64,000 nt of DNA. It comes from an uncultured Saprospiraceae bacterium (GTDB taxonomy: Bacteria > Bacteroidota > Bacteroidia > Chitinophagales > Saprospiraceae). Made by a program: the position numbers and the translations under genes. The notes under the pieces are model-generated. The model was not told where the DNA came from. It searched no databases and worked only from the letters and a program-made list of their open reading frames with translations. The DNA is taken from contig CALFUU010000021.1 in assembly GCA_937929835.1 (NCBI GenBank), forward strand, positions 1-64,000, given 5' to 3'. Shown here one piece after another: positions 16,693-51,309 of this stretch. Each line of letters opens with the position of its first letter. Position 1 is the stretch's first letter.

Positions 16693-17997
16693 ATGAAAAG
16701 GAAGGTAACTAAAACTTCTGCTGCTGCTAAGAAAAAGGCTGCTGCAAAAAAGAAAGCTGCGGCTGAGAAAAAAGCAGCAATGGCTGCTAGAAAAAAAGCT
16801 GCTGCTGCAAAACGTAAAGAAGCCGCTGCTAAGAAAAAGGCAGCTGCCGCTAAAAAGCGTGCTGCCGCTGCTGCAAAGCGTAAAGCTGCTGCTGCTAAGA
16901 AAAAAGCTGCCGCTGCTAAGAAGCGTGCTGCTGCCGCTGCTGCTAGAAAAAAAGCTGCTGCTGCTAAGAAAAAAGAGGTTGCTGCTAGAAAGAAGGCTGC
17001 TGCTGCAGAAAGAAAAGCTGCTGCTAAAGCTAAAAAGGCTGCTACTGCCGCAAAGCGTAAAGCTGCTGCTGCTGCCAAGCGTAAAGCTGCCGCAGAAAAG
17101 AAAAGAGAGGCTGCTGCTAGGAAAAAAGAAGCTGTAAAGGCAAGAAAAGCTGCTGCTGCTGCTAGAAAGAAAGCCGCTGCTGCTAAAAAGAGAGAAGCTG
17201 CTAGGGAGAGAAAAGCTGCTGCCGCTGCTAAGAAGAGAGAAGCTGCTGCTAAGCGTAAAGCTGCTGCTGCCAAGCGTAAGGCTGCTGCTGCTAAGAAAAA
17301 AGCTGCGACAACTGCTGCTAGAAAGAAAGCTGCTGCTGCTAAGAAGAAAGCTGCTGCTGCTAAGAAAAAAGAGACAGCTGCTAGAAAAAGAGAGGCTGCT
17401 GCTGCCAAGAAAGCTGCTGCTAGAGTAAGAAAAGCTGCTGCAACTGCTAAGAAAAGAGAAGCTGCAAAGGCTAGAAAAGCTGCTGCAACTGAGAAGAAGA
17501 GAGCAACTGCTGCAAGAAAAAGAGCTGCTGCTGCTGCTAAGAAGAAGGCGACTGCCGCTAGGAGAAAAGAGGCTACTGCTAAGAAAAGAGCTGCTGCTAA
17601 AGAAAGAAAGGCTGCTTCTGCTGCCAAGAAAAGAGAAACAGCTAGAGCAAGAAAAGCTGCTGCAGCTGCCAAGAAAAAAGAAACTGCTGCTAGGAAAAGA
17701 GCTGCTGCCGCTGCCAAAAAAGCTGCTGCAAGAGAAAAGAAAGCTGCTGCTACTGCTAAGAAGAGAGCTGCTGCTGCTAAGAAAAGAGAAGCTGCTGCAA
17801 AAGCTAGAAAAAGAGCTGCTGCAGAAAGAAAGAGAGCTGCTGCTGCCAAGAAAAGAGAAGTTGCTGCTAGAAAGAAGGCGGCTGCTGCTGCAAAAAAGGC
17901 TAAGAAAGCTGCTAAAAAGAAACCAGCTAAGAAAAAAGCTGCGAAGAAGATTACAGCAAAGAAAAAGTCTGCTAAGAAGAGAAAATCTAGAAGATAG
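16693..17997 (+). CDS. Lys/Ala-rich histone H1-like (HC2/AlgP-like) low-complexity protein
   Basis: 434 aa almost entirely K/A/R/E (KKAAAAKKRAAAAAKRK...); followed by a strong terminator. Confidence 0.8.
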   Translation: MKRKVTKTSAAAKKKAAAKKKAAAEKKAAMAARKKAAAAKRKEAAAKKKAAAAKKRAAAAAKRKAAAAKKKAAAAKKRAAAAAARKKAAAAKKKEVAARKKAAAAERKAAAKAKKAATAAKRKAAAAAKRKAAAEKKREAAARKKEAVKARKAAAAARKKAAAAKKREAARERKAAAAAKKREAAAKRKAAAAKRKAAAAKKKAATTAARKKAAAAKKKAAAAKKKETAARKREAAAAKKAAARVRKAAATAKKREAAKARKAAATEKKRATAARKRAAAAAKKKATAARRKEATAKKRAAAKERKAASAAKKRETARARKAAAAAKKKETAARKRAAAAAKKAAAREKKAAATAKKRAAAAKKREAAAKARKRAAAERKRAAAAKKREVAARKKAAAAAKKAKKAAKKKPAKKKAAKKITAKKKSAKKRKSRR

Positions 17998-20037: not shown

Positions 20038-23000
20038 CTAATTCATAATGATCACTTTCTCTGTATCTGTACGGCCATCATTTCTCAAGATTCTGATGAT
20101 ATACATACCTCCATTGAGATCTGATACATCCGTTCTTGATCGTTCCTCTATCTCAATATTTCGCAGCTTTTGACCTGATTGGCTGTATAAGCTGATTTGC
20201 GTTACTTCAGAAACATCATTTATTTCAAGATTCATCACTTGCGATACTGGGTTAGGATAGATCCTTACTTCCAGAGGCGATGCGTCTTGAGTAGTTTCAG
20301 TTTCTATTGTCTCTAGTTCTGTTGTTGCTAGAATTTCTGTAGTCACAATTACTGGCTCTACTTCTTCTGTATGACTTGTAACAAGTGCTGTGAGTTCGAT
20401 TGGATCATTGATGACCAAGGCAGACTTGGTATCTGTGTCTTCTGGCTTCAATGTGCCATTGACAACATTGATACAGTAGTCTTCTGTCTCACCATATAGA
20501 TATGTTCCACAAGGACTCGTTGCATAACCACCTAATTTGGTTATCACTCTCATTGCACAAGTGCCATTAGGTATACCTGCTGGAATTGTAATGCCTCCAG
20601 TAATAGTCCCAGCTCCAGCGCCATAAGCGACAAACTCTAGGTTGTCCTCGAAGTCCCCATCTTGGTTGAAATCTATCCAACAAGTCCAGTACATCGTATG
20701 ACTCTTTCCGCCACCAAAACCAGGATGGAATTCTATCGGTACAAACAGTCCAGGTTCTATTTCTGTACATATCGAGCTGTAGTTTCCGTAGCCACCATCA
20801 TTACCAGAAGTATTGTTGATATCACCAAAGACACATTGGTCTATGTAACCGAAAGTAGAAATCAGGCCTGATGATGCACATGGTGCAGTATTACAAGCAC
20901 CTACTGTGATGTCGAAGCTACAAGTCTCAGTTGACCCGCAAGGATCATTAACTGTGTAGGTCACGGTGTATGTTCCCTCTGGATTAACGCTTCCTGGTGC
21001 TGGGCCTGCAGTCTGCGTGATCGTTGTACAAGGTATCTCCAAGATGTACTCAAGTGAGTAGTGATTGTATTGATCGTTCCATTCTCCTGTGCTCAACATC
21101 TCCACATAGTCTTGACTATTATTGAAGTTGTTAGGCTGACCAGGGAACCAGTTTGTATAATCTACTGGATCTTCATTGCACCATTCATACTGTCCTTCAG
21201 CATTCACATCTGTCAGACCTATCCACGCTGATGATATAGAGAGTTGGTCCGCAATGAATTCATTTTCCTCAAAGCTGTTAACGTCCGCGAGGAAACCACC
21301 ATTCGCCTCACACACAGTCTTAGCTACTGGCCAAGTTGCCGGTGCAGTAGAGCAGTAGTAATGAGAACCATTAAAGTTACCCATATAGATAAATCCTGTG
21401 ATCGGACTACCTACAGTACATGTTGTACACGCCGTCGTATATGTCGGTGGTGTCCAATTAGCTGGCTCACCACACGCTACAGTTATATTCGATGGACAGT
21501 TATTGAATCCGGAATTACCTGCCGTACAATCCACTTGTATATCGAAGCTACATTCTGCTGCAGTGCCACAAGCATCCGTAAGCGTATAAGTGACAGTTGT
21601 TAATCCACAAGGGAAAGTGTCGCCACTATTATGTGTACTCGTCAATGTTGCAGTACCACAAGCATCTGTGATATTCGGTGCAGTCCACGTAACTGGTGTG
21701 TTGTCTCCGATAACAGTTACGTCTGCTGGACAAGCTCCGAGTGTAGGTACTACATTTTCTATAGTTATAATCTGTGTACAGCTGTCTTGATATCCTATAC
21801 CTTCTTGCAAGTCTACTAAGAATGATCTCTCTATAGTTGCCTCTCCAGTACAAGTACCTGTTGCAATTAGAGAATCTGTATGTGTCACCACGATGTCGAT
21901 ACATAGTGGGAAGGCTATGAAGGTGGCGTCTCCTGTCGTGGCTGGTGTGATATCACTTCCGATACACACTGTCACATCATCAGGACATACGGCTATAGGC
22001 GCTATGTCACAAACATCGCTACAAGAGACGATGATGTCAAAGCTGCACGTTGCTGTGTTGCCACAGTTATCTGTTGCTGTGTAAGTTACTGTAGTCGTCC
22101 CTTCGTCAAAGATATCTCCTGAGGCTACCAAGTTGCCATTTTGATCAGTAGCAACGAGTGTCGTTGTACTACAATCATCTGAAACAGTTGGTATTTCCCA
22201 AGTCGCTACCGCTGAGCAAATAGTACCTTGTCCAGTTCCTCCTCCCGGAGTACCAGAACCCGTACCAGAACCCGTACCTCCACCAGTGCCTGTCATATCA
22301 GATCCTAAGAGGATTAAGCCGATCGGACAGTTTGCAATCTCTGGAGCTGCTGTATCTACTAATTCTATTGTCTGTACACAACTGACTGTCAAGAGTGCAT
22401 CTTGAGGATCAGTTGCTGTAAATGTTCTTTCTATTACTTGTTCATTGATGCAAGGTCCTGTAGATACGACTACATCTGCAAAAGTCAATACTGGCGTAGC
22501 ACAAGCCGTTTCGCCTGCAACAACTATTGGCAGTCCTGTTACAGTTGTATCTGGTACTGTGCCATCTGGACAATCAACAAAGTTATCTGGACAAGTGATC
22601 AGTGGAGCAGCGCCACATACCTCACACTCTACAGTAACAGTAAAGCTTGCTGTACTTTGGTTGCCACAATCATCAGTCGCTGTACAAGTTACGGTCGTTG
22701 CACCTTGTCCAAAGGCTGTACCACTAGGGAAGTCGCACGTATAAGTGGCCGAACCACAATTGTCTGTAGTTGTCGGCGCTGACCAAGTCGCAATAGCCGT
22801 ACAATTAGGTCCTGAACCAGAGATCGTTAAATCCGCTGGGACATTGCTGATTGTTGGTGGCGTAGTATCTTCTAAGGTTATCGTTTGTACACAACTAGCA
22901 TTCAATCCTGAAGAAGGGTCAGTTGCTGTCCAGACTCTATCGATTTCAGTTGCCCCAGCACAAGGTCCTGTACTGTTCACTATGTCGAAGTGACTGATAG

Positions 23001-26000
23001 TTGGGTTAGCATTACAACCTGCTCCTGTATTATTTCCTACGGCCAACCCTGTGACTGAAGGCTGGGTAGAACCAGTAGGGCAGGCCACATAGTCCGCAGG
23101 ACAAGTGATTGTAGGTGTCGTATTACATCCAGCGCACAGCACGGTGATTGTAAAGCTAGCATTAGTAGAGTTTCCACAGTTATCAGTAGCGGTGTATATA
23201 GCGGTATATACCCCTTCGCTAAAGACACTACCATTTACATACTGACAGCCAGAGGATAAAATAGTACAGTTATCTGTTGCTGTTGGCTCTAACCAAGTTA
23301 CTGGAACATTACAGCCAGCAGCGACTCCAGTTACTGTAATGTCAGCTGGGACATTGGTCAATACTGGTGGGGTGTTATCGATAAGCGAGATAGTCTGTAC
23401 ACAAGTAGAATTGAGTCCAGAGTTGATATCTGTCGCCGTCCACGTTCTGCTTATTGTTTGGGCTCCAGCGCAGTTTCCTGTAGCAATCACTTGATCACTG
23501 TAAGTAACTGTCGGTGTTGCGCTACAGTTGGCTCCATTGTTATAGGCCGTTGCATATCCTGTTAGCGTAGGAGATGTACTAGCTGCTGGGCAAGCTGTGT
23601 AGTTTGGTGGACAAGCGACAACCGGTGGTGTATTACAACCTATACATTGTACCGTAACAATAAATGTAGAAGATGATTGATTGCCACAAGCATCTGTCGC
23701 TGTGTAAGTTACTGTCGTCTGACCTTGATTAAATATTGACCCTACAGAATAACTAGATGTCAATGTTACGGAACTACAGTTATCAAAAGCGGTAGGCGCA
23801 CTCCAGGTTACGGGAACCTGACAATTGGATCCTGTGCCTGTGACTATAATATTGTTAGGCATATTTGATATTGTCGGCGGAGTATTATCTCCCAGTGAGA
23901 TCACTTGGACACAACTATTTGTCAATCCTGAAGAAGGATCAGTTGCTGTCCACGTTCTTTCTATTTCCTTAGAGCCAAAGCAAGGACCTGTACTGACGAT
24001 AAGGTCAGTGAAATTGAGATTCGGGGTGCTGCTACAGTTAGCTCCTGTATTGGAAGCCCAAGCAAAACCTGTAACCGATGGACTACTAACTGTGTTAGCA
24101 CACGCTACATAGTTGGTAGGACAATTGATTGTCGGTGCAGTGTTACAACCAGCACATTGTACAGTTACTGTAAATGAACCGATAGCTGTATTGCCACAAG
24201 CATCTGTAGCGGTATAGGTTACTGTAGTTGTGCCTTCTGCAAATGCATATCCACTAGGATAGCTAGATGTCATCGTCGGTGTACCACAATTATCACTTGC
24301 AGTAGGTATGGTCCAGTTGGCTATTACTTGACATCCTGATCCATTGCCAGCTAGTGTTAGGTTGGCAGGTAGATTATGTATGACAGGATTGACATTGTCT
24401 CCTAGAGTAATCGTCTGGACACAACTTGTAGTTAAGTTACTATTTGTATCATAGGCAACCCACGTTCTTTCTGTCACTGAAGCTCCTGCACATGGGCCAG
24501 ACGTAATCTGATTATCTGTAAAAGTTATAGATGGCATTCCAGAACAATTAGCTCCTGGTGCACCTGTTGCTACACCTGCGAAAGAAGGACTCGTATTGGA
24601 ACCTACACAAGCTGTATAATTAGCAGGACACGTCACTGATGGAGGTGCTGTACATTCTTCACAGTTTACCGTAACAGTAAATGAGGTCGTAGCAGAGTTT
24701 CCACAAAGGTCGAATGCAGTGTAAGTAACTGTTGTCGTGCCTTCTGAGAAGCTAGAACCATTTGTGCTGCTAGAAGTAACAAAATCAATACCGCAATTAT
24801 CGCTAGCTACTGGTGCATTCCAAGTGACTGGAACTTGACATCCTGTACCGATTCCAGTTACAATAATATTTCCTGGCACACTTGAGAATACAGGTAAGCT
24901 GTTGTCTTCGAGTGTAATGGTCTGTGTGCAATTTGCTGCAAGATTATTAGTCGGATCAGTAGCCATCCACAATCTTTGGATAACTTGTCCTCCAGCACAA
25001 GGGCCTGTAGAGACAATGTTATCTACGTGAGAGATAAATGGTGCACCACTACAATTTGGTCCTGATATGGCTCCAGTGGCTGTGCCTGCATTGATAGGTG
25101 CTATGTTACCATTGATGCAAGTCGTATAGCTTGCGGGACAGTTTATAGTTGGTGGAGTATTACAACCTTCACATTGTACAGTAATGGTGAATGAAGCTGT
25201 TGCAATATTGCCACAGTTATCAACTGCTGTATAGACAATTGTCGTCGTACCAGAAGAGAAAGTAATTCCACTTCCTATATTACTACTCAATGAAGCCAGG
25301 CCACAATCGTCTGTGGCAGTAGGCTCAGCCCAAGACACAGGTTCTTGACAACCAAAGCCAGAACCTGTCACCACAATATTATTCGGAATATTAGAAATAA
25401 CTGGAAGAGAATTATCCTCTAAGGTAATTAGTTGTACACAACTACTTTGCAATTTATTATCTGGATCAGTAGTGATCCACGTTCTTTCTATGACTTGTGC
25501 ACCTGCACAAGATCCAGTATGCACAACGACATCAGAGAAAGTTGTGTATGGAGTCCCTGAACAGTTGTCACCGTTTATAATACCAAAGGCAAAACCTGTC
25601 TCTAGAAAACTAGGTACCGTGCCATCAGCACAAGCTGTATAGTTTTCTGGACAAGAAATTGACGGTGGTGTTGTACAAGTTGTATTGATACAGTTTACAG
25701 TTACCGTAAATGATCCAGTAGCCACTTGACCGCAATTGTCTATTGCCGTATAAGTCACCGTCGTTGTTCCTTGGTCAAAGGTAGCTCCGGATGCAAAGTT
25801 GGATGTTAGAGAAGCTATGCCACAATCATCTGTTGCTGCAGGAGCTGTCCAGGTTGCCACAGCTTGACAGTTACTACCAGAAACTTCTAAGTTGATATTA
25901 CTTGGTAGATTATTGATTACAGGAATTGCATTATCCTGTAAGGTAATGGTCTGTATACACGAAGCAGATAAGTTGGCATTGTTCGGATCGTTGGCAATCC

Positions 26001-29000
26001 AAGTTCTATTGTATGTGCCCGCTCCAGTACACGTACTACTTCCATTGACCAATAAGTCAGAGAAAGTTAGTAGAGGCGTGCTACAGTTAGCATCACCAGG
26101 CATTGCAATGGCCAGACCTGTTATAGATGGATCTATTGCACCAGCTCCAGGACAAGCACTATAGTTGGCTGGACAAGAAATCGTTGGTGGCACAGAGCAC
26201 GTTGCGGCTACGCATTGTACAGTTACGGTAAATGACACTGTAGTCGTATTGTTACAATTATCCGTTGCTGTATAAGTTATCGTCGTCGTACCTTGAGGTA
26301 ATATATCTCCAGAATTAAAATTAGATACTACTGTATTGATACCGCAGTCGTCAGTCGCTGTAGGTGCTTCCCAAGTTGCAGCAGCAGTACAATTAGTTCC
26401 TGTTCCATTAAGTGTAAGATTGCCTGGTACATTTGAAAATACAGGCGCATTATTGTCTCCTAGTTCTATCACTTGTATACAAGTAGATATCTGTGCCGAG
26501 GTCAAATCAAAAGCTGTCCACGTTCTTTCAACTGTGTATGCACCATTGCAAGAACCGAATCCAGTAATCATATCACTGTAGAATACAAAGGGTGCACCGC
26601 AACCAGTTGCTCCTGGTGCAGAACTCGCAACACCTGAGACAGATGGAGAAGGTATCGATCCTCCTGCGCAACTGGCAAAGCTGTTAGGACAACTGATGAT
26701 AGGCGGCGTATTACATCCTTCAGCACAGAGTACTGTTACGTTAAAGCTGGCATTGGTGGTGTTGCCACACGCATCTGTTGCCGTATAAGTCACGCTCGTC
26801 GTTCCTTCAGAAAAATTATCTCCTGACTGTGCACTTGATGTAAGACTAGCTACGCCGCAACCATCTGTCGCTACAGGTTCCGTCCATTTTACCAAGACAT
26901 TGCAATTGTTTCCTGAGCCGTGTACTGTAAGATCTGTCGGAATATTAGTTAGTGTCGGTGCCGCTCCATCATCTTGTAGTGTCAGTGTTTGGACACAACT
27001 AGAAGTTAATCCTGATCCTGCATCTGTTGCAGTCCATGTTCTTTGTATAGTCTGTTCACCAGTACAGTTTCCAGTAGAAATAACTTGATCACTAAAGCTT
27101 ACTGTAGGCGTTCCACAATTTGTATCTGTGGCTATAGCGGTAGCACTTCCTGCGACTGAGGGATCTATCGATCCAGGGCAAGCGTTATAATTCGAAGGAC
27201 AAGTAATTGCTGGAGCTGCGTTACATGCGCAGTCTACTGTGACAGTAAAGCTCACAGTAGAAGTCTGCCCACAAGCATCTGCCGCAGTATAAGTTATTGT
27301 TGTCGTTCCTTGTGCAAAGAGAGAGCCACTAGGTTGTGTAGATACTAAAGTTATCACACCACAATTATCTGTAGCTACTGGTTCTGTCCAAGTCACATTT
27401 GCAGAACAAGAAGAACCTGATCCTAGTACTGTAATATTTTGAGGCACATTGCTGATGACAGGTGCCACAGTGTCATTTAGATTTATCGTTTGTACACAGC
27501 TACTGGTCAGTCCATTATTGTTCGGATCTGTCGCAGTCCATGTCCTTGTTATAGCCATAGCGCCTGTACAATTTCCAACAGGCGTAGCATTGACATCTGT
27601 AAAAGTTACTGCAGGTGTGCTACAGTTAGGGTCAGTTGTAGTAGCAGTTGCCACACCAGTTGTCGATGGGTCTGTATTGCCACCAAGACAAGCATTGATA
27701 TTGGCAGGACATACAATCTGTGGAACAGTGTTGCAGGCACAACCTACTGTCACTGTAAAGCTTACTGCAGTTGTATTGCCACAAGCATCAGAAGCTGTGT
27801 AAGTTACGGTCGTCGTTCCTTCAGCAAATAGAGATCCGCTAGATTGTGTAGATACTAGTGTCGCCACACCACAATTGTCAGTCGCTGATGGTTCTGACCA
27901 AGTCACCGTTGCAGAGCATCCTGATCCATTGCCGAGCACATTTATATTTTGAGGAACATTGGTGATGACGGGTGCAGAGGTGTCGTTGACATTAATTGTC
28001 TGTACACAACTGGTCAATAAACTATTGTTATTGGTTACGGTAGCGGACCACGTTCTCGTGATGATAGTCGCTCCTGTGCAACTTCCTGCGGGTGTAGACA
28101 CGACATCTGTAAAATTGATGGCCGGTGTACCACACGATGGATCTCCAGCGACAGCAGTTGCTAATCCAGTAAATGAAGGTGTCGTATTACTGCCGAGGCA
28201 CAAGTCCACATTTGCAGGACAAGTGATCACTGGTGGTGTACTGCAGATACAAGTCACTGTAACATTAAAAGCAAAAGTTGCCACATTGCCACAGTCATCC
28301 ACGGCTGTATAAGTGACTACTGTCATCCCTTCTGGAAATGAAGTTCCACTGGTATGTGTAGAGGTAACCGTTACGTTACAGTTGTCATTGACCGTTGGCT
28401 CTATCCAAGTTGCTATTGCGGTACAACTACTTCCTGTAGCGGATAACTGTATGGCACCAGGACCATTTGTGATTAGAGGATTACTTGTATCCGTAGAGGT
28501 AATCTGTTGTGTACAAGCAGCTGAGCCAGTTGGCACTGTTGCGTTCCAAGTTCTTTGTATGACAAATGCTCCTGTACAAGGACCAGTAGATATGGTTGCA
28601 TCTGTAAAGGTTACCGTCGGTGCAGGACAAGTACTACTTGCCATTGTCGCCGCTGCGGTACCAGTTGTCGCTGGACTAAAATCACCTCCTGGGCAAACGG
28701 TAGCCGCCTGCGGGCAGGTAATATTTGGTGCGGTACAACAACTTCCTGTGACTGTCACACTAAATGCGCAAGTGCGCTCATTTCCACATTGATCAGAGGC
28801 AGTATAGACAACTGGCGTTGTGCCACTTGTAAATGTAGCACCACTAAAATGTGTCGTTATAAAAAATTGAATGCCGCAATCGTCTTCGGCTGTAGGGACT
28901 GTCCAGATAGCGGTGCTGTCACAACTTACAGACAGGTCAAGGGTCAAGTCACTAGGACAGTTGATTATCGTAGGTGCTACATTGTCCTCTAAGAAAAGTG

Positions 29001-29388
29001 TCTGCTGACAAGTCGAATGTAGCTTAATACTGGCAGATCCTGGAGGGTAACTCGCCTCCCAAGTCCTGTGGACTATTTTGAGACAAGAAGTATTGCTGAC
29101 GATCTGATCAGTGAAGCTCACGACGGGTGTCGGGCAACTTGGGTCGCCAGGCATTGCTGTAGGAAATCCTGTATTGGTCGGATTTATATCATCTGAAGGG
29201 CAGCCCAGATAAGTGGGCGGACAGAATAATACCGGAGCAGTAAGGCACATGACAGAAAGGTCCATTTGAGCCTCTGGCACATCTGCATCAAAACAGAAAT
29301 TTTCATTTCCGCTGTCTGCTTTAGCTCCATAACTACAGAGGAGCAGCAAGCTCATGCAGAAGAAGATGTGGTAAATGTTTTTCATCAT
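20038..29388 (-). CDS. giant HYR-repeat cell-surface protein with C-type lectin and GEVED domains and T9SS type A sorting domain
   Basis: 3116 aa; signal peptide; about 15 repeats of 'C..PP.I.CP.NY.AC...TWSAPTATDNCG...GTTTVTYTATDACGN..SFTVTV'; lectin-like WIGLTDVNAEGQYEWCNEDPVDYTNWFPGQPNN; GEVED-like WIDFNQDGDFED; C-terminal IYPNPVSQVMNLEI...GMYIIRI...EKVIIMN. Confidence 0.93.
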   Translation of the reverse strand: MMKNIYHIFFCMSLLLLCSYGAKADSGNENFCFDADVPEAQMDLSVMCLTAPVLFCPPTYLGCPSDDINPTNTGFPTAMPGDPSCPTPVVSFTDQIVSNTSCLKIVHRTWEASYPPGSASIKLHSTCQQTLFLEDNVAPTIINCPSDLTLDLSVSCDSTAIWTVPTAEDDCGIQFFITTHFSGATFTSGTTPVVYTASDQCGNERTCAFSVTVTGSCCTAPNITCPQAATVCPGGDFSPATTGTAAATMASSTCPAPTVTFTDATISTGPCTGAFVIQRTWNATVPTGSAACTQQITSTDTSNPLITNGPGAIQLSATGSSCTAIATWIEPTVNDNCNVTVTSTHTSGTSFPEGMTVVTYTAVDDCGNVATFAFNVTVTCICSTPPVITCPANVDLCLGSNTTPSFTGLATAVAGDPSCGTPAINFTDVVSTPAGSCTGATIITRTWSATVTNNNSLLTSCVQTINVNDTSAPVITNVPQNINVLGNGSGCSATVTWSEPSATDNCGVATLVSTQSSGSLFAEGTTTVTYTASDACGNTTAVSFTVTVGCACNTVPQIVCPANINACLGGNTDPSTTGVATATTTDPNCSTPAVTFTDVNATPVGNCTGAMAITRTWTATDPNNNGLTSSCVQTINLNDTVAPVISNVPQNITVLGSGSSCSANVTWTEPVATDNCGVITLVSTQPSGSLFAQGTTTITYTAADACGQTSTVSFTVTVDCACNAAPAITCPSNYNACPGSIDPSVAGSATAIATDTNCGTPTVSFSDQVISTGNCTGEQTIQRTWTATDAGSGLTSSCVQTLTLQDDGAAPTLTNIPTDLTVHGSGNNCNVLVKWTEPVATDGCGVASLTSSAQSGDNFSEGTTSVTYTATDACGNTTNASFNVTVLCAEGCNTPPIISCPNSFASCAGGSIPSPSVSGVASSAPGATGCGAPFVFYSDMITGFGSCNGAYTVERTWTAFDLTSAQISTCIQVIELGDNNAPVFSNVPGNLTLNGTGTNCTAAATWEAPTATDDCGINTVVSNFNSGDILPQGTTTITYTATDNCNNTTTVSFTVTVQCVAATCSVPPTISCPANYSACPGAGAIDPSITGLAIAMPGDANCSTPLLTFSDLLVNGSSTCTGAGTYNRTWIANDPNNANLSASCIQTITLQDNAIPVINNLPSNINLEVSGSNCQAVATWTAPAATDDCGIASLTSNFASGATFDQGTTTVTYTAIDNCGQVATGSFTVTVNCINTTCTTPPSISCPENYTACADGTVPSFLETGFAFGIINGDNCSGTPYTTFSDVVVHTGSCAGAQVIERTWITTDPDNKLQSSCVQLITLEDNSLPVISNIPNNIVVTGSGFGCQEPVSWAEPTATDDCGLASLSSNIGSGITFSSGTTTIVYTAVDNCGNIATASFTITVQCEGCNTPPTINCPASYTTCINGNIAPINAGTATGAISGPNCSGAPFISHVDNIVSTGPCAGGQVIQRLWMATDPTNNLAANCTQTITLEDNSLPVFSSVPGNIIVTGIGTGCQVPVTWNAPVASDNCGIDFVTSSSTNGSSFSEGTTTVTYTAFDLCGNSATTSFTVTVNCEECTAPPSVTCPANYTACVGSNTSPSFAGVATGAPGANCSGMPSITFTDNQITSGPCAGASVTERTWVAYDTNSNLTTSCVQTITLGDNVNPVIHNLPANLTLAGNGSGCQVIANWTIPTASDNCGTPTMTSSYPSGYAFAEGTTTVTYTATDACGNTAIGSFTVTVQCAGCNTAPTINCPTNYVACANTVSSPSVTGFAWASNTGANCSSTPNLNFTDLIVSTGPCFGSKEIERTWTATDPSSGLTNSCVQVISLGDNTPPTISNMPNNIIVTGTGSNCQVPVTWSAPTAFDNCSSVTLTSSYSVGSIFNQGQTTVTYTATDACGNQSSSTFIVTVQCIGCNTPPVVACPPNYTACPAASTSPTLTGYATAYNNGANCSATPTVTYSDQVIATGNCAGAQTISRTWTATDINSGLNSTCVQTISLIDNTPPVLTNVPADITVTGVAAGCNVPVTWLEPTATDNCTILSSGCQYVNGSVFSEGVYTAIYTATDNCGNSTNASFTITVLCAGCNTTPTITCPADYVACPTGSTQPSVTGLAVGNNTGAGCNANPTISHFDIVNSTGPCAGATEIDRVWTATDPSSGLNASCVQTITLEDTTPPTISNVPADLTISGSGPNCTAIATWSAPTTTDNCGSATYTCDFPSGTAFGQGATTVTCTATDDCGNQSTASFTVTVECEVCGAAPLITCPDNFVDCPDGTVPDTTVTGLPIVVAGETACATPVLTFADVVVSTGPCINEQVIERTFTATDPQDALLTVSCVQTIELVDTAAPEIANCPIGLILLGSDMTGTGGGTGSGTGSGTPGGGTGQGTICSAVATWEIPTVSDDCSTTTLVATDQNGNLVASGDIFDEGTTTVTYTATDNCGNTATCSFDIIVSCSDVCDIAPIAVCPDDVTVCIGSDITPATTGDATFIAFPLCIDIVVTHTDSLIATGTCTGEATIERSFLVDLQEGIGYQDSCTQIITIENVVPTLGACPADVTVIGDNTPVTWTAPNITDACGTATLTSTHNSGDTFPCGLTTVTYTLTDACGTAAECSFDIQVDCTAGNSGFNNCPSNITVACGEPANWTPPTYTTACTTCTVGSPITGFIYMGNFNGSHYYCSTAPATWPVAKTVCEANGGFLADVNSFEENEFIADQLSISSAWIGLTDVNAEGQYEWCNEDPVDYTNWFPGQPNNFNNSQDYVEMLSTGEWNDQYNHYSLEYILEIPCTTITQTAGPAPGSVNPEGTYTVTYTVNDPCGSTETCSFDITVGACNTAPCASSGLISTFGYIDQCVFGDINNTSGNDGGYGNYSSICTEIEPGLFVPIEFHPGFGGGKSHTMYWTCWIDFNQDGDFEDNLEFVAYGAGAGTITGGITIPAGIPNGTCAMRVITKLGGYATSPCGTYLYGETEDYCINVVNGTLKPEDTDTKSALVINDPIELTALVTSHTEEVEPVIVTTEILATTELETIETETTQDASPLEVRIYPNPVSQVMNLEINDVSEVTQISLYSQSGQKLRNIEIEERSRTDVSDLNGGMYIIRILRNDGRTDTEKVIIMN
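21890..29260 (-). repeat. about 15 tandem ~165-aa (~500-bp) HYR-containing units
   Basis: Unit starts such as CNTPPTINCPASYTTC, CTAPPSVTCPANYTAC, CNTAPTINCPTNYVAC recur through the protein. Confidence 0.88.
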
Positions 29389-33856: not shown

Positions 33857-35893
33857 CTATTTTCCTCCGTCTAACTCATCCTGAAGTTTTTTAAGCTTGT
33901 CCCATTTTCCAGCTGCTGCTAGTTTAGACTGCTTTGGCCATGAGCCTGGGTTATGCATTCTGAATCTAGGTCCTGCATCTTCGAGAAGGCCTTGTAAGGT
34001 TTTTACTTTTGCTTTACCCAATTCCTCGAAGGTATGTATCCCACCTTTGTTCATTATCTGAGCAATCTTTGGTCCGATACCTTCGATCTTGGTCAGGTCA
34101 TCTTTCTTGCTCTTAGCGGTAGTTTTCTTGCCAGTAGTACTTTTAGCTGCGGTTTTCTTGCCAGTAGATTGTTTAGCTGCAGTCTTCTTTGTAGCAGTTT
34201 TTTTACTACCTGAAGCCTTTTGTGTTACCGACGTTGTTTTTTTCGCTTTTGTTTTTTCACTTGACGCGGCCCCACCTGTTTTGGTGATCGCTTTGTCTTG
34301 TCTAGCGATGGTCTTAGCTTCTCCCTTCTTTGTCGTGGTGCCAACTACTGTCCTAGAACTCTCAGTGGCCATTTGCGCCATCATTACCTGAAGTGCTTCG
34401 AAGTCTAATGTTCTAGTTACTTCTACTTCCTTTATGATTTCAATAGGCACTTCCTTGATGACCTCTATTTCTTTGATCACCTCGACTTCCTTGATGACTT
34501 CTACCTCTTTGATGACCTCGACAGGCTTCTCAACAATTTTCTCTACTTCTACCTCTTTGATCACCTCGACTTCTTTGATCACTTCTACTTCTTTGATGAC
34601 CTCGACAGGCTTCTCAACGATTTTCTCTACTTCTACCTCTTTGATCACCTCTACTTCCTTGATCACTTCTACCTCTTTGATCACCTCGACAGGCTTCTCA
34701 ACGATTTTCTCTACTTCTACCTCTTTGATCACCTCGACTTCCTTAATCACCTCTACTTCTTTGATTACCTCTACTTCTTTGATGACCTCGACAGGCTTCT
34801 CAACGATTTTCTCTACTTCTACCTCTTTAATTACCTCGACTTCCTTGATCACCTCTACTTCTTTGATGACCTCGACAGGCTTCTCAACGATTTTCTCTAC
34901 TTCTACCTCTTTGATTACCTCCACTTCTTTAATGACCTCGACAGGCTTCTCAACAATTTTCTCTACTTCTACCTCTTTGATTACCTCCACTTCCTTGATG
35001 ACTTCGACTTCCTTGATCACTTCTACCTCTTTGATCACCTCGACAGGCTTCTCTACTATTTTTTCTACCTCTACTTCTTTAATGACTTCGACAGGCTTCT
35101 CAACTATTTTCTCTACTTCGACTTCTTTGATCACTTCGACTTCCTTGATCACCTCCACTTCTTTGATCACTTCTACCTCTTTGATCACTTCGACAGGCTT
35201 CTCTACTATTTTCTCTACTTCCTTGATGACCTCCACCTCTTTGATGACTTCGACAGGCTTCTCAACTATTTTCTCTACTTCCTTGATCACTTCAACCTCC
35301 TTGATGACCTCCACAGGCTTCTCGACTATCTTTTCTACAATTTTCTCTACCTCTATCTCTTTGACAACTTCCACTTCTTTGACGACTTCTACCTCCTTGA
35401 TGACCTCGACTTCTTTGATGACCTCGACTTCCTTGATGACCTCGACTTCCTTGACAACTTCCACTTCTTTGACGACCTCTATTTCACGTAGTTGACTACT
35501 CGCCGCATTTGCAGAGGACAATTGAGAAGTCCAAGAGCTTTTGTCAGACTCATACTTTGAGGAGAGGGATTGATATTTTGTTTCTAAGTCAGAGTGCTTC
35601 TTTTTCCAGAGGCTTAAGTCTCCGCTGCCAGCGCCTGCTGCACCTGCTGCTGCACCTCCTTTTGATTTAAGAAGCTTTTGATATTTAAGGTCTAGAGCGC
35701 CATATTTATTTTTCCAGTCGCCTCCAGTGCCACCACCTAGTGCGCCAAATTTTTCTCTAAATCTATTCCATCCAAATGCCCAGCCCAAGAACCATGCACC
35801 TAGCATTAGTAATAAAGGTAGAAGTATACAAATCGGCCACCCAAATAGTAGCCCAAATCCGAACACTTTTCCAAAGCAGATAAATAATGTCAT
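33857..35893 (-). CDS. membrane-anchored (VIKEVE)n repeat protein with C-terminal helix-hairpin-helix domain
   Basis: N-terminal hydrophobic segment LLFGWPICILLPLLLMLGAWFLGWAFGW; coiled-coil; about 11 EKIVEKPVEVIKEVE blocks; C-term [28 protein letters not shown]...[12 protein letters not shown]. Confidence 0.85.
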   Translation of the reverse strand: MTLFICFGKVFGFGLLFGWPICILLPLLLMLGAWFLGWAFGWNRFREKFGALGGGTGGDWKNKYGALDLKYQKLLKSKGGAAAGAAGAGSGDLSLWKKKHSDLETKYQSLSSKYESDKSSWTSQLSSANAASSQLREIEVVKEVEVVKEVEVIKEVEVIKEVEVIKEVEVVKEVEVVKEIEVEKIVEKIVEKPVEVIKEVEVIKEVEKIVEKPVEVIKEVEVIKEVEKIVEKPVEVIKEVEVIKEVEVIKEVEVIKEVEVEKIVEKPVEVIKEVEVEKIVEKPVEVIKEVEVIKEVEVIKEVEVIKEVEVEKIVEKPVEVIKEVEVIKEVEVEKIVEKPVEVIKEVEVIKEVEVIKEVEVEKIVEKPVEVIKEVEVIKEVEVIKEVEVIKEVEVEKIVEKPVEVIKEVEVIKEVEVIKEVEVEKIVEKPVEVIKEVEVIKEVEVIKEVEVEKIVEKPVEVIKEVEVIKEVEVIKEIEVIKEVPIEIIKEVEVTRTLDFEALQVMMAQMATESSRTVVGTTTKKGEAKTIARQDKAITKTGGAASSEKTKAKKTTSVTQKASGSKKTATKKTAAKQSTGKKTAAKSTTGKKTTAKSKKDDLTKIEGIGPKIAQIMNKGGIHTFEELGKAKVKTLQGLLEDAGPRFRMHNPGSWPKQSKLAAAGKWDKLKKLQDELDGGK
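34425..35495 (-). repeat. in-frame tandem repeat array (18-bp VIKEVE units with IVEKPVE spacers)
   Basis: Near-identical 'cacctcgacttctttgat' units and 'gacctcgacaggcttctcaacgattttctctacttc' spacers on the + strand. Confidence 0.9.
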
Positions 35894-46242: not shown

Positions 46243-47013
46243 CTATTCTTCTTCGCCCTTGTTGACAACTTTTCCGCCGTCTAGCTCGTCTTGCAACTTT
46301 TCTAATTCATCCCATTTGCCATCGGCAGCCAATTGTGCTTGCTGTGGCCAAGTGGCTGGGCTGTGCATTTTGAATCTAGGACCAGCTGCCGTCAAGATTT
46401 CTTGAAGCTTGTCCGTAGAAGTTGCTGCTAATCCTGCAAAGGTTGTGATTCCTGCTGCATTTAAGTGCTCAGCGATCTTTGGACCTATGCCTTCTATTTT
46501 GTTGAGTTTGTCAGGCTTGCCGCCTGTCTTTGCAGCTCCAGCTCCTGCCGCAGCTCCAGCAGCGCTTGCTTTTTCTGCAGCTTCTTTAGCCTTCATAGCC
46601 TCATACTCTTCCATAGACATTCTGTGTACAGTCGTCTTAGTTGTTGTTTCTGTAGAAGATGAAGTTGCTGCTGACGGACTAGCCGCTGCAGCCTTAGCTT
46701 TAGGTTTTGCTTCTGATTTTCTTGCCTTAGGAGACTTGACTGCTGCACCTCCATCAGAATCCAATGGAATGATGTGTACAAAAGTCTTTCCGCCTCTTCT
46801 CTTAGTGAAGCTCACGGTCCCTTCTATTTTGGCATGCAGGGTATGGTCCCTACCCATATATACATTTTCGCCAGGGTGGTATTTTGTACCACGCTGTCTA
46901 ACGATAATATTTCCTGCTTTGGCGTATTGACTTCCGAAGAGTTTTACACCGAGGTATTTCGGATTTGAATCACGGCCATTATCCGTACTACCTACACCTT
47001 TTTTGTGTGCCAT
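46243..47013 (-). CDS. rpmA: 50S ribosomal protein L27 with ~170-aa C-terminal extension ending in a helix-hairpin-helix domain
   Basis: L27 core [69 protein letters not shown]; Ala/Lys linker; [32 protein letters not shown]...[20 protein letters not shown]. Confidence 0.95.
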
Positions 47014-49824: not shown

Positions 49825-51309
49825 TTATTTCATTATAACCATTTCTATTCTTCTGTTTTGTGCTCTTCCTTCAGCACTGCCGTTATCAGCAACTGGGTTA
49901 GCAGCTCCAAAACCTTTAGTGTTCACTCTTGCAGCATCAATGCCTTTAGCCATTAGTCTCGCTTTTACAGCATTCGCTCTTGCTTGAGATAACTGTACGT
50001 TAGCATCTGCATTTCCTGTGTTATCTGTGTAGCCTTCTACATTTACTTTTACACCAGGATAGGCTTTAAGGATTGCCGCCATATTATCAACTTCTACAGC
50101 AGTAGCACCATCAATGTTGGCAGATCCTGTAGCGAAAGTTAAGTTCTTAAAAGTAAATCTTCCGTCTCCTTTGAACCCTCCATCGATAAATTTCATCATT
50201 TCTGATCCAGCAGATCCAGCACCAAACTTGATTTTATCTAGAGCGCCTTTTGCAGCCTCATCGATTTTACCAAACATACCACCGACAGCACCTGCAGCAC
50301 CTTTCATAGCATCTCCAGCGGCACCTGCAGCATCTCCTGCCATATCAGCAGCACCCTTGGCAGCATCTCCTGCCATGTCAGCAGCACCTTTAGCAGCATC
50401 TCCTGCCATGTCAGCAGTTTTAGCAACAGCGCCTTTAGCAGCATCTGCAGCACCACCTAGACCTGGACCTATTCCAAACCACCCAGCAACACCTATAAGG
50501 ATTGCAAGAGGAATTAACCATCTCAATATAGAGCCGCCTGTCTTGACAGCAGCTCCACCTACATCGCCAGCCATATTAGCAGCACTTCCGGCTACATTGC
50601 CTACACCTCCGACAAGCTTCTTGCCAGCGTCAGCAGCTCCACCTACAACTTTTCCAGCTGCATCTGTAGCTCCACCTACAACTTTTCCAGCAGCACCAGT
50701 CGCACCACCTACAATTTTCTTACCTGCATCCATACCATCGCTAGCTAGACCAGAAACGGCACTTGCGCCTTTTCCTAAGAACCCTGCTCCTAGAGAAGAA
50801 AGCAATCCTTGTGGCATAGAAGATTTGATATGACCCTTCTGCTCACCTAAGAATTTTCCAAAGCCAACTGCATCAAGCGCTTTGTTTTTGATCTGTCTTC
50901 CGACCATAGACATCAAGAATGGCGCAGCCATCTTAATTAATGATGAAGCAGCAGATCCTTTAAGACCACTGAAGCCTGCAATCTTGTCTATAAGGCCTCC
51001 CGTAGAGTTGCCTAATAATAGATTAAGAACTCCAGAACCGCCATTCATTATCTTAGCGACATTTCCTGCTCCACCTCCGAAGAGACCACCTATGTCATCA
51101 AGAATGCTAGCATCCTGGCCTTTAGCCATGTCAAATAGCTTACCTAGACCATTACTGTCCTCAGCAGTATCCGCCATTTTACCTAGTAGAACTGGAAAAA
51201 TTCCGTCTAGTGCTTTTCCCACGCTAGACTCAGATTCTCCTAGAAACTTCGCTGCTTGAGAGCCTAAGGAGCCAGTTACCTGGTCCTTAACCATATCCAA
51301 TAAATTCAT
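49825..51309 (-). CDS. DUF937-like N-terminus + Ala/Gly LEA-like repeats + TM + OmpA C-terminal domain
   Basis: MNLLDMVKDQVTGSLGSQAAKFLGESESSVGKALDGIFPVLLGKM; AADMAGDAAKG x3; TM LRWLIPLAILIGVAGWFGIG; OmpA VNVEGYTDNTGNADANVQLSQARANAVKARL...AQNRRIEMVIMK. Confidence 0.9.
   Translation of the reverse strand: MNLLDMVKDQVTGSLGSQAAKFLGESESSVGKALDGIFPVLLGKMADTAEDSNGLGKLFDMAKGQDASILDDIGGLFGGGAGNVAKIMNGGSGVLNLLLGNSTGGLIDKIAGFSGLKGSAASSLIKMAAPFLMSMVGRQIKNKALDAVGFGKFLGEQKGHIKSSMPQGLLSSLGAGFLGKGASAVSGLASDGMDAGKKIVGGATGAAGKVVGGATDAAGKVVGGAADAGKKLVGGVGNVAGSAANMAGDVGGAAVKTGGSILRWLIPLAILIGVAGWFGIGPGLGGAADAAKGAVAKTADMAGDAAKGAADMAGDAAKGAADMAGDAAGAAGDAMKGAAGAVGGMFGKIDEAAKGALDKIKFGAGSAGSEMMKFIDGGFKGDGRFTFKNLTFATGSANIDGATAVEVDNMAAILKAYPGVKVNVEGYTDNTGNADANVQLSQARANAVKARLMAKGIDAARVNTKGFGAANPVADNGSAEGRAQNRRIEMVIMK

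Follow-up and report, generated by a model that had tools for sequence, protein, structure and literature searches.

In the window analysed here, the whole 64,000-nucleotide stretch from an uncultured Saprospiraceae bacterium, the gene designated P0001 joins an N-terminal transmembrane (TM) segment, a rod built from five amino acids and a C-terminal HhH tag. The architecture of the gene, the conservation of its operon, selection on the rod, the exchangeability of the rod and the sharing of the tag with other proteins are established by computation. The reading preferred here, with a probability of roughly 0.45, is that P0001 is an inner-membrane tether in which the rod serves as a spacer and the HhH tag retains a ligand, be it nucleic acid, ribosomes or other complexes bearing the tag.

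P0001 (33857..35893, minus strand, as are its parts) encodes 678 residues, as indicated by the ORF call and by orthologues. The membrane anchor proposed in the preliminary description is predicted by hydropathy and by an AlphaFold helix at residues about 15–42 (35768..35851), with one flanking charge before and three after. A helical linker follows at residues 43–136 (35486..35767; AlphaFold helices 21–84 and 91–136). The rod spans residues 137–492 (34418..35485) and is delimited by its composition and by a strict two-residue register of E and K. Residues 493–532 (34298..34417) hold the conserved motif D(M/F)xxLxxMM...S(R/K)xVVG, which is also present in the paralogue P0002 and in a coiled-coil orthologue. 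Charge counts define a basic K/T/A-rich linker at residues 533–596 (34106..34297), and the 90 residues preceding the HhH domain have a net charge of +20 and a histone-H1-like composition. The C-terminal HhH noted previously (residues 597–678; 33860..34105) is confirmed by a match to PF14520 (E=4e-07; 30.9 bits against a cut-off of 27) and by an AlphaFold model with pLDDT 93–97 over most of the domain. Elsewhere, the window encodes a 434-residue histone H1-like protein consisting almost entirely of Ala, Lys and Arg, with no Pfam match (16693–17997).

The rod had been described as about 350 residues, nearly all V, I, K, E and P, with about 11 EKPVEV blocks, and counting agrees: its 356 residues use these five letters exclusively (E 32.0%, V 32.0%, K 17.7%, I 14.9%, P 3.4%) and include 11 EKPVEV, 12 EKIVE and 33 VIKEVE words. 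Repeat identity is strongest at a lag of 6 (0.69), with 0.60 at a lag of 12 and nearly as high values at 16 and 22; the period is 6, with 10-residue inserts. Strict alternation of hydrophobic and charged residues, also proposed, does not hold, since only 229 of 355 steps alternate; it is the charge register that is strict. All 114 E fall on one phase of a two-residue register (with 48 I, 12 P and 4 V) and all 63 K on the opposite phase (with 110 V and 5 I), so that acid and base never share a phase. In orthologous membrane rods with differing unit words, acids and bases occupy opposite phases at 0.90–1.00, against 0.53–0.58 in shuffles, a test that overstates significance because the tract is repetitive; P0002-type rods score 0.75–0.94. 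Because a repeated unit of even length passes such a test trivially, distinct K..K words were counted instead: in 18 proteins, 130 of 145 (lengths 2 to 18) have even spacing, compared with 57–69% in coiled-coil and S1 control sequences. Such spacing fits selection for an extended two-faced chain, although it falls short of proof. In the full-length AlphaFold model, the rod comes out unstructured at very low confidence (pLDDT 23–31), as neither helix nor strand. The repeat matches no sequence in the PDB, and an HMM comparison for alveolin or articulin membership found no Pfam family matching the rod at E-values up to 10, where HMMER filters may hide low-complexity matches. An exact DNA pattern for EVIKEVEVIKEV occurs in 2 of 296 genomes of the phylum, including the source genome, and is too strict to describe distribution.

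The rod is exchangeable between orthologues: the five-letter tract shrinks or becomes a coiled coil while the neighbouring genes stay. In four loci (L020, L065, L074 and L094), the rod is mostly or wholly coiled coil and the operon is unchanged; three of these (L065, L074 and L094) and a paralogue (L025) have no EVKIP tract. In another family, the orthologue (G037) has 1017 residues, and a coiled-coil repeat replaces most of the tract. Even this coiled-coil orthologue retains, ahead of the DMxxLxxMM motif, a short stub of the EVIKEVPVEIIKEVEV type, which suggests that the five-letter tract arose by expansion of a conserved element.

P0001 lies in the one-strand gene order P0004, P0001, P0002, P0003. 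The upstream partner P0004 (35928..36782, minus strand) has an N-terminal TM segment and an OmpA domain (PF00691, E=8.1e-26; HTDNTG and LSQSRA), and the PF00691 match together with the D and R of the peptidoglycan-binding type assigns it to the OmpA family. An OmpA-domain gene is found 19–75 bp upstream in 26 of the 27 TM-rod-HhH loci of the source and other genomes, the exception (L025) having a TM protein without a Pfam match. Both canonical stretches, TD..G and LS..RA, are present in 18 of 27 partner proteins. Another OmpA-domain protein, with a Gly/Ala-rich repeat middle, is encoded at 49825–51309 of the window, and a similar gene occurs in L016, L079 and L081. A 3116-residue secreted protein with many similar repeats, HYR-like by eye, and a C-terminal sorting-type end lies at 20038–29388.

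Downstream, P0002 (32246..33679, minus strand) consists of an HU-like helical hairpin, a rod, the P0001 motif and an HhH tag, and a gene of this HU-like, rod and HhH layout often follows the TM-rod-HhH gene. The first 30 residues of P0002 match HU-alpha at E=0.02, with HU chains in the top nine places; Pfam Bac_DNA_binding is detected in 4 of 13 such N-termini (best E 0.0071), and AlphaFold predicts two helices with the beta arms absent. This type of N-terminus was found in 19 of 120 Saprospiraceae genomes. P0003 (31515..32156, minus strand) encodes a TM segment and a basic coiled coil, has orthologues in L018 and L019 and, judged against orthologues, probably starts at an internal ATG. In genomes of the same genus, the cluster recurs with an ABC-F gene on one side and an aminotransferase-like gene on the other. 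A proprotein convertase P-domain gene with an HhH tag is inserted in the operon in L018 (6806–7792), L019 (6450–7445), L035, L042 and L062, and is absent from the window. Pairing of the P0001 and P0002 rods by opposite net charge was considered and rejected as a general rule: it holds in the window (−49 and +9), L018 and L019 and fails in L026, L040, L051 and L071.

The HhH tag extends far beyond the operon. The source genome has eight copies, in P0001, P0002, ribosomal proteins L27, S1, S6 and S16 and two further membrane proteins, and the tag is present in 110 of 120 Saprospiraceae genomes. Within the window, a separate locus (46243..47013, minus strand) encodes L27 with the tag (PF01016 and PF14520; 61% tag identity). 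The tagged L27, S1, S6 and S16 genes lie at window 46243–47013, L022 2760–5102 and 8560–9228, and L023 8042–9055; in L054, L27 carries three copies of the tag. Other genomes add S2, L15, L17, ActC, ActD and CBM48-like and P-domain proteins, and the alternative complex III subunits (NrfD/ActC-type and ActD) are tagged in L083, L084 and L092. The tag is present in 110 genomes and a P0002-type gene in 19 of the same 120; therefore, tagged ribosomes do not need P0002. Sequence comparison relates the tag to RadA, among others, and its closest solved relatives are subunits of a reaction centre and of complex I. Foldseek returns RadA, NusA C-terminal repeats and DNA polymerases, weakly and with no E below 0.001. 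Literature searches for this HhH tag, whether on ribosomal proteins, on NuoE or in Saprospiraceae, found no account of it.

If P0001 is a tether, the N-terminal segment would anchor it with the remainder in the cytoplasm. In nearly all orthologues, positive charges lie predominantly on the C-terminal side of the TM segment; this bias, together with the same tag on ribosomal S1, S2, S6, S16, L15, L17 and L27, points to a cytoplasmic tag. The E/V/K/I/P tract would act as a long spacer with an extended, even-register, beta-strand-like conformation, and binding of nucleic acid, ribosomes or other HhH-bearing complexes would fall to the basic linker and HhH tag. P0004 would share this membrane and extend its OmpA domain into the periplasm, onto peptidoglycan, possibly in physical contact with P0001. 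P0002, likewise built with the rod and the tag but beginning with an HU-like hairpin, would be the soluble counterpart. The tether is favoured by the OmpA-TM gene upstream in 26 of 27 loci, by the +20 basic linker, by the exchangeable rod, by purifying selection on the rod, by the conserved register and by HhH relatives in sequence and fold (RadA, NusA C-terminal repeats and DNA polymerases). Against it stand the weak Foldseek matches, the P0002-type gene in just 19 of 120 genomes and the partners that lack canonical peptidoglycan-binding residues. A broader version seems doubtful, in which the operon would link envelope to interior across Saprospiraceae, from an OmpA partner on peptidoglycan through the inner membrane and a two-faced beta rod to a family-wide HhH tag docking ribosomes or nucleoid; the acid and base faces of the rods may then pair between P0001 and P0002.

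The evidence on the tag also bears on two other readings. HhH domains could self-associate or bind other tags, in which case the membrane rods would be a protein scaffold that gathers ribosomes and alternative complex III near the membrane and binds no nucleic acid. The range of unrelated machines that bear the tag (ribosomal proteins, ActC, ActD, CBM48-like and P-domain proteins) points this way, and its nearest solved relatives, the reaction-centre and complex I subunits, belong to membrane complexes; with ActC and ActD, they count against the tether, as they also fit a protein–protein role. NusA C-terminal repeats, which act by protein contacts, are likewise among the relatives. Conversely, HhH proteins that bind nucleic acid have the same GxGPK hairpin and basic linkers, and the scaffold is possible but on the improbable side. 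That P0001 is a ComEA-like DNA receptor, with its HhH outside the cytoplasm, would agree with a membrane-anchored HhH protein. However, the charges flanking the TM segment predict an inside C-terminus (a prediction only), the same tag is carried by ribosomal proteins and no competence genes were recognised among the ORFs of the window, making a receptor very unlikely.

As for the rod, computation shows that it is under purifying selection rather than a product of neutral slippage. VIKEVE-like units within it give pS 0.80 and pN 0.025, the latter biased low because units were picked by protein sequence. Against a genome of the same genus (G011), dN is 0.016 with dS saturated in a less biased comparison, in which the high dS may partly reflect aligned non-orthologous units; the TM region and OmpA neighbour give dS near 0.7 and dN 0.04. 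When neutral change was simulated at 0.93 substitutions per site, the EVKIP share fell to about 34%, compared with 100% observed. A functionless, neutral low-complexity expansion could account for the wide variation in repeat copy number between orthologues and for an in-frame TAA in the G011 orthologue repeat (L016, about 19700), which lies near a contig end and may be an assembly error or the sign of a broken gene. Such an expansion is scarcely credible given the five-letter alphabet kept despite synonymous saturation and the register preserved among orthologues. The neutral expansion, and absence from orthologues, that would have reduced the repeat to chance were not found: it occurs in orthologues and is kept by selection. 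The charge-register rule is concrete and testable, and random low complexity would not be expected to follow it. Selection on a V/I/E/K-rich tract without A, G or L, in a two-faced register, would also suit a membrane skeleton in which the P0001 and P0002 rods polymerise via beta-strands into a submembrane filament or sheet, an analogue of alveolins and articulins such as the preliminary description proposed. The rod is common to two proteins of one operon, P0002 as a whole has 12 VPV modules (20–21 in some orthologues), set against an articulin subclass criterion of more than three per domain, and articulin-like proteins reported in Caulobacter offer a bacterial precedent (PMC6212826). Nevertheless, P0001 has no VPV and a period of 6, AlphaFold leaves the rod without structure and no solved structure resembles it, and some orthologues whose operon is the same lack the tract or have a coiled coil instead. 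A filament as core function is disfavoured because the operon is kept with the repeat shortened or coiled coil and because of the tether features, namely HhH on ribosomal proteins and an OmpA partner of the peptidoglycan-binding type; a skeleton is unlikely.

If the tether reading is true, P0001 provides a simple setting for testing the V/E/K/I low-complexity tracts of protist membrane skeletons and some bacteria, and a lineage-wide C-terminal tag may bring ribosomes and respiratory complexes to the membrane. The envelope-to-interior linkage, if true, would amount to a novel kind of cytoskeletal or tethering polymer in bacteria, together with a genome-wide tag system. V/E/K-rich tracts in bacteria are not new, because the Caulobacter articulin-like proteins had already been noted (PMC6212826); the operon, register rule and shared tag were not found described in the literature searched.

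Among known systems, P0004 resembles OmpA-family peptidoglycan-binding proteins in PF00691 and in its HTDNTG and LSQSRA residues and differs in its N-terminal TM anchor and its pairing with a rod-HhH protein. The tag shares PF14520, a GIGPK hairpin and weak fold matches with HhH_5-type domains (RadA N-terminal domain, NusA C-terminal repeats and DNA polymerase HhH), but it is longer by about 40 residues, with conserved W and P among them, and is C-terminal on many unrelated proteins. The C-terminal HhH extensions of L21, S2 and NuoE (NCBIfam PRK12278, PRK12311 and PRK12373) match weakly, far below equivalog cut-offs, and, unlike P0001, have neither TM anchor nor rod. With epiplastins (alveolins and articulins) and the Caulobacter articulin-like proteins, P0001 shares a V/I/E/K-rich low-complexity middle domain in which V/I flank acid–base dyads and A, G and L are nearly absent, a net negative charge and a distinct head and tail. 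The epiplastin domain is predicted to be strand and coil with no helix, and the AlphaFold model of the rod shows neither helix nor strand, at pLDDT 23–31. Epiplastin means are E 16±5%, V+I 33±7% and charged residues 35±6% (PMC6212826), and the P0001 rod (E 32%, V+I 47%, charged 50%, no R) lies 2–3 SD above them. The composition of the alveolin- and articulin-like repeat noted in the preliminary description points in the epiplastin direction; kinship to alveolins or articulins is not supported (no VPV, period 6, no Pfam match). P0001 further departs from epiplastins in its TM anchor, its HhH tail, a period of 6 in place of their 12-residue periodicity (PMC4303705), the lack of detectable sequence homology and a tract that a coiled coil can replace in orthologues. 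By published criteria (PMC6212826; PMC4303705), P0001 is not an articulin and its kinship with alveolins is undetectable by sequence; by analogy, it may nonetheless work in a manner similar to alveolins.
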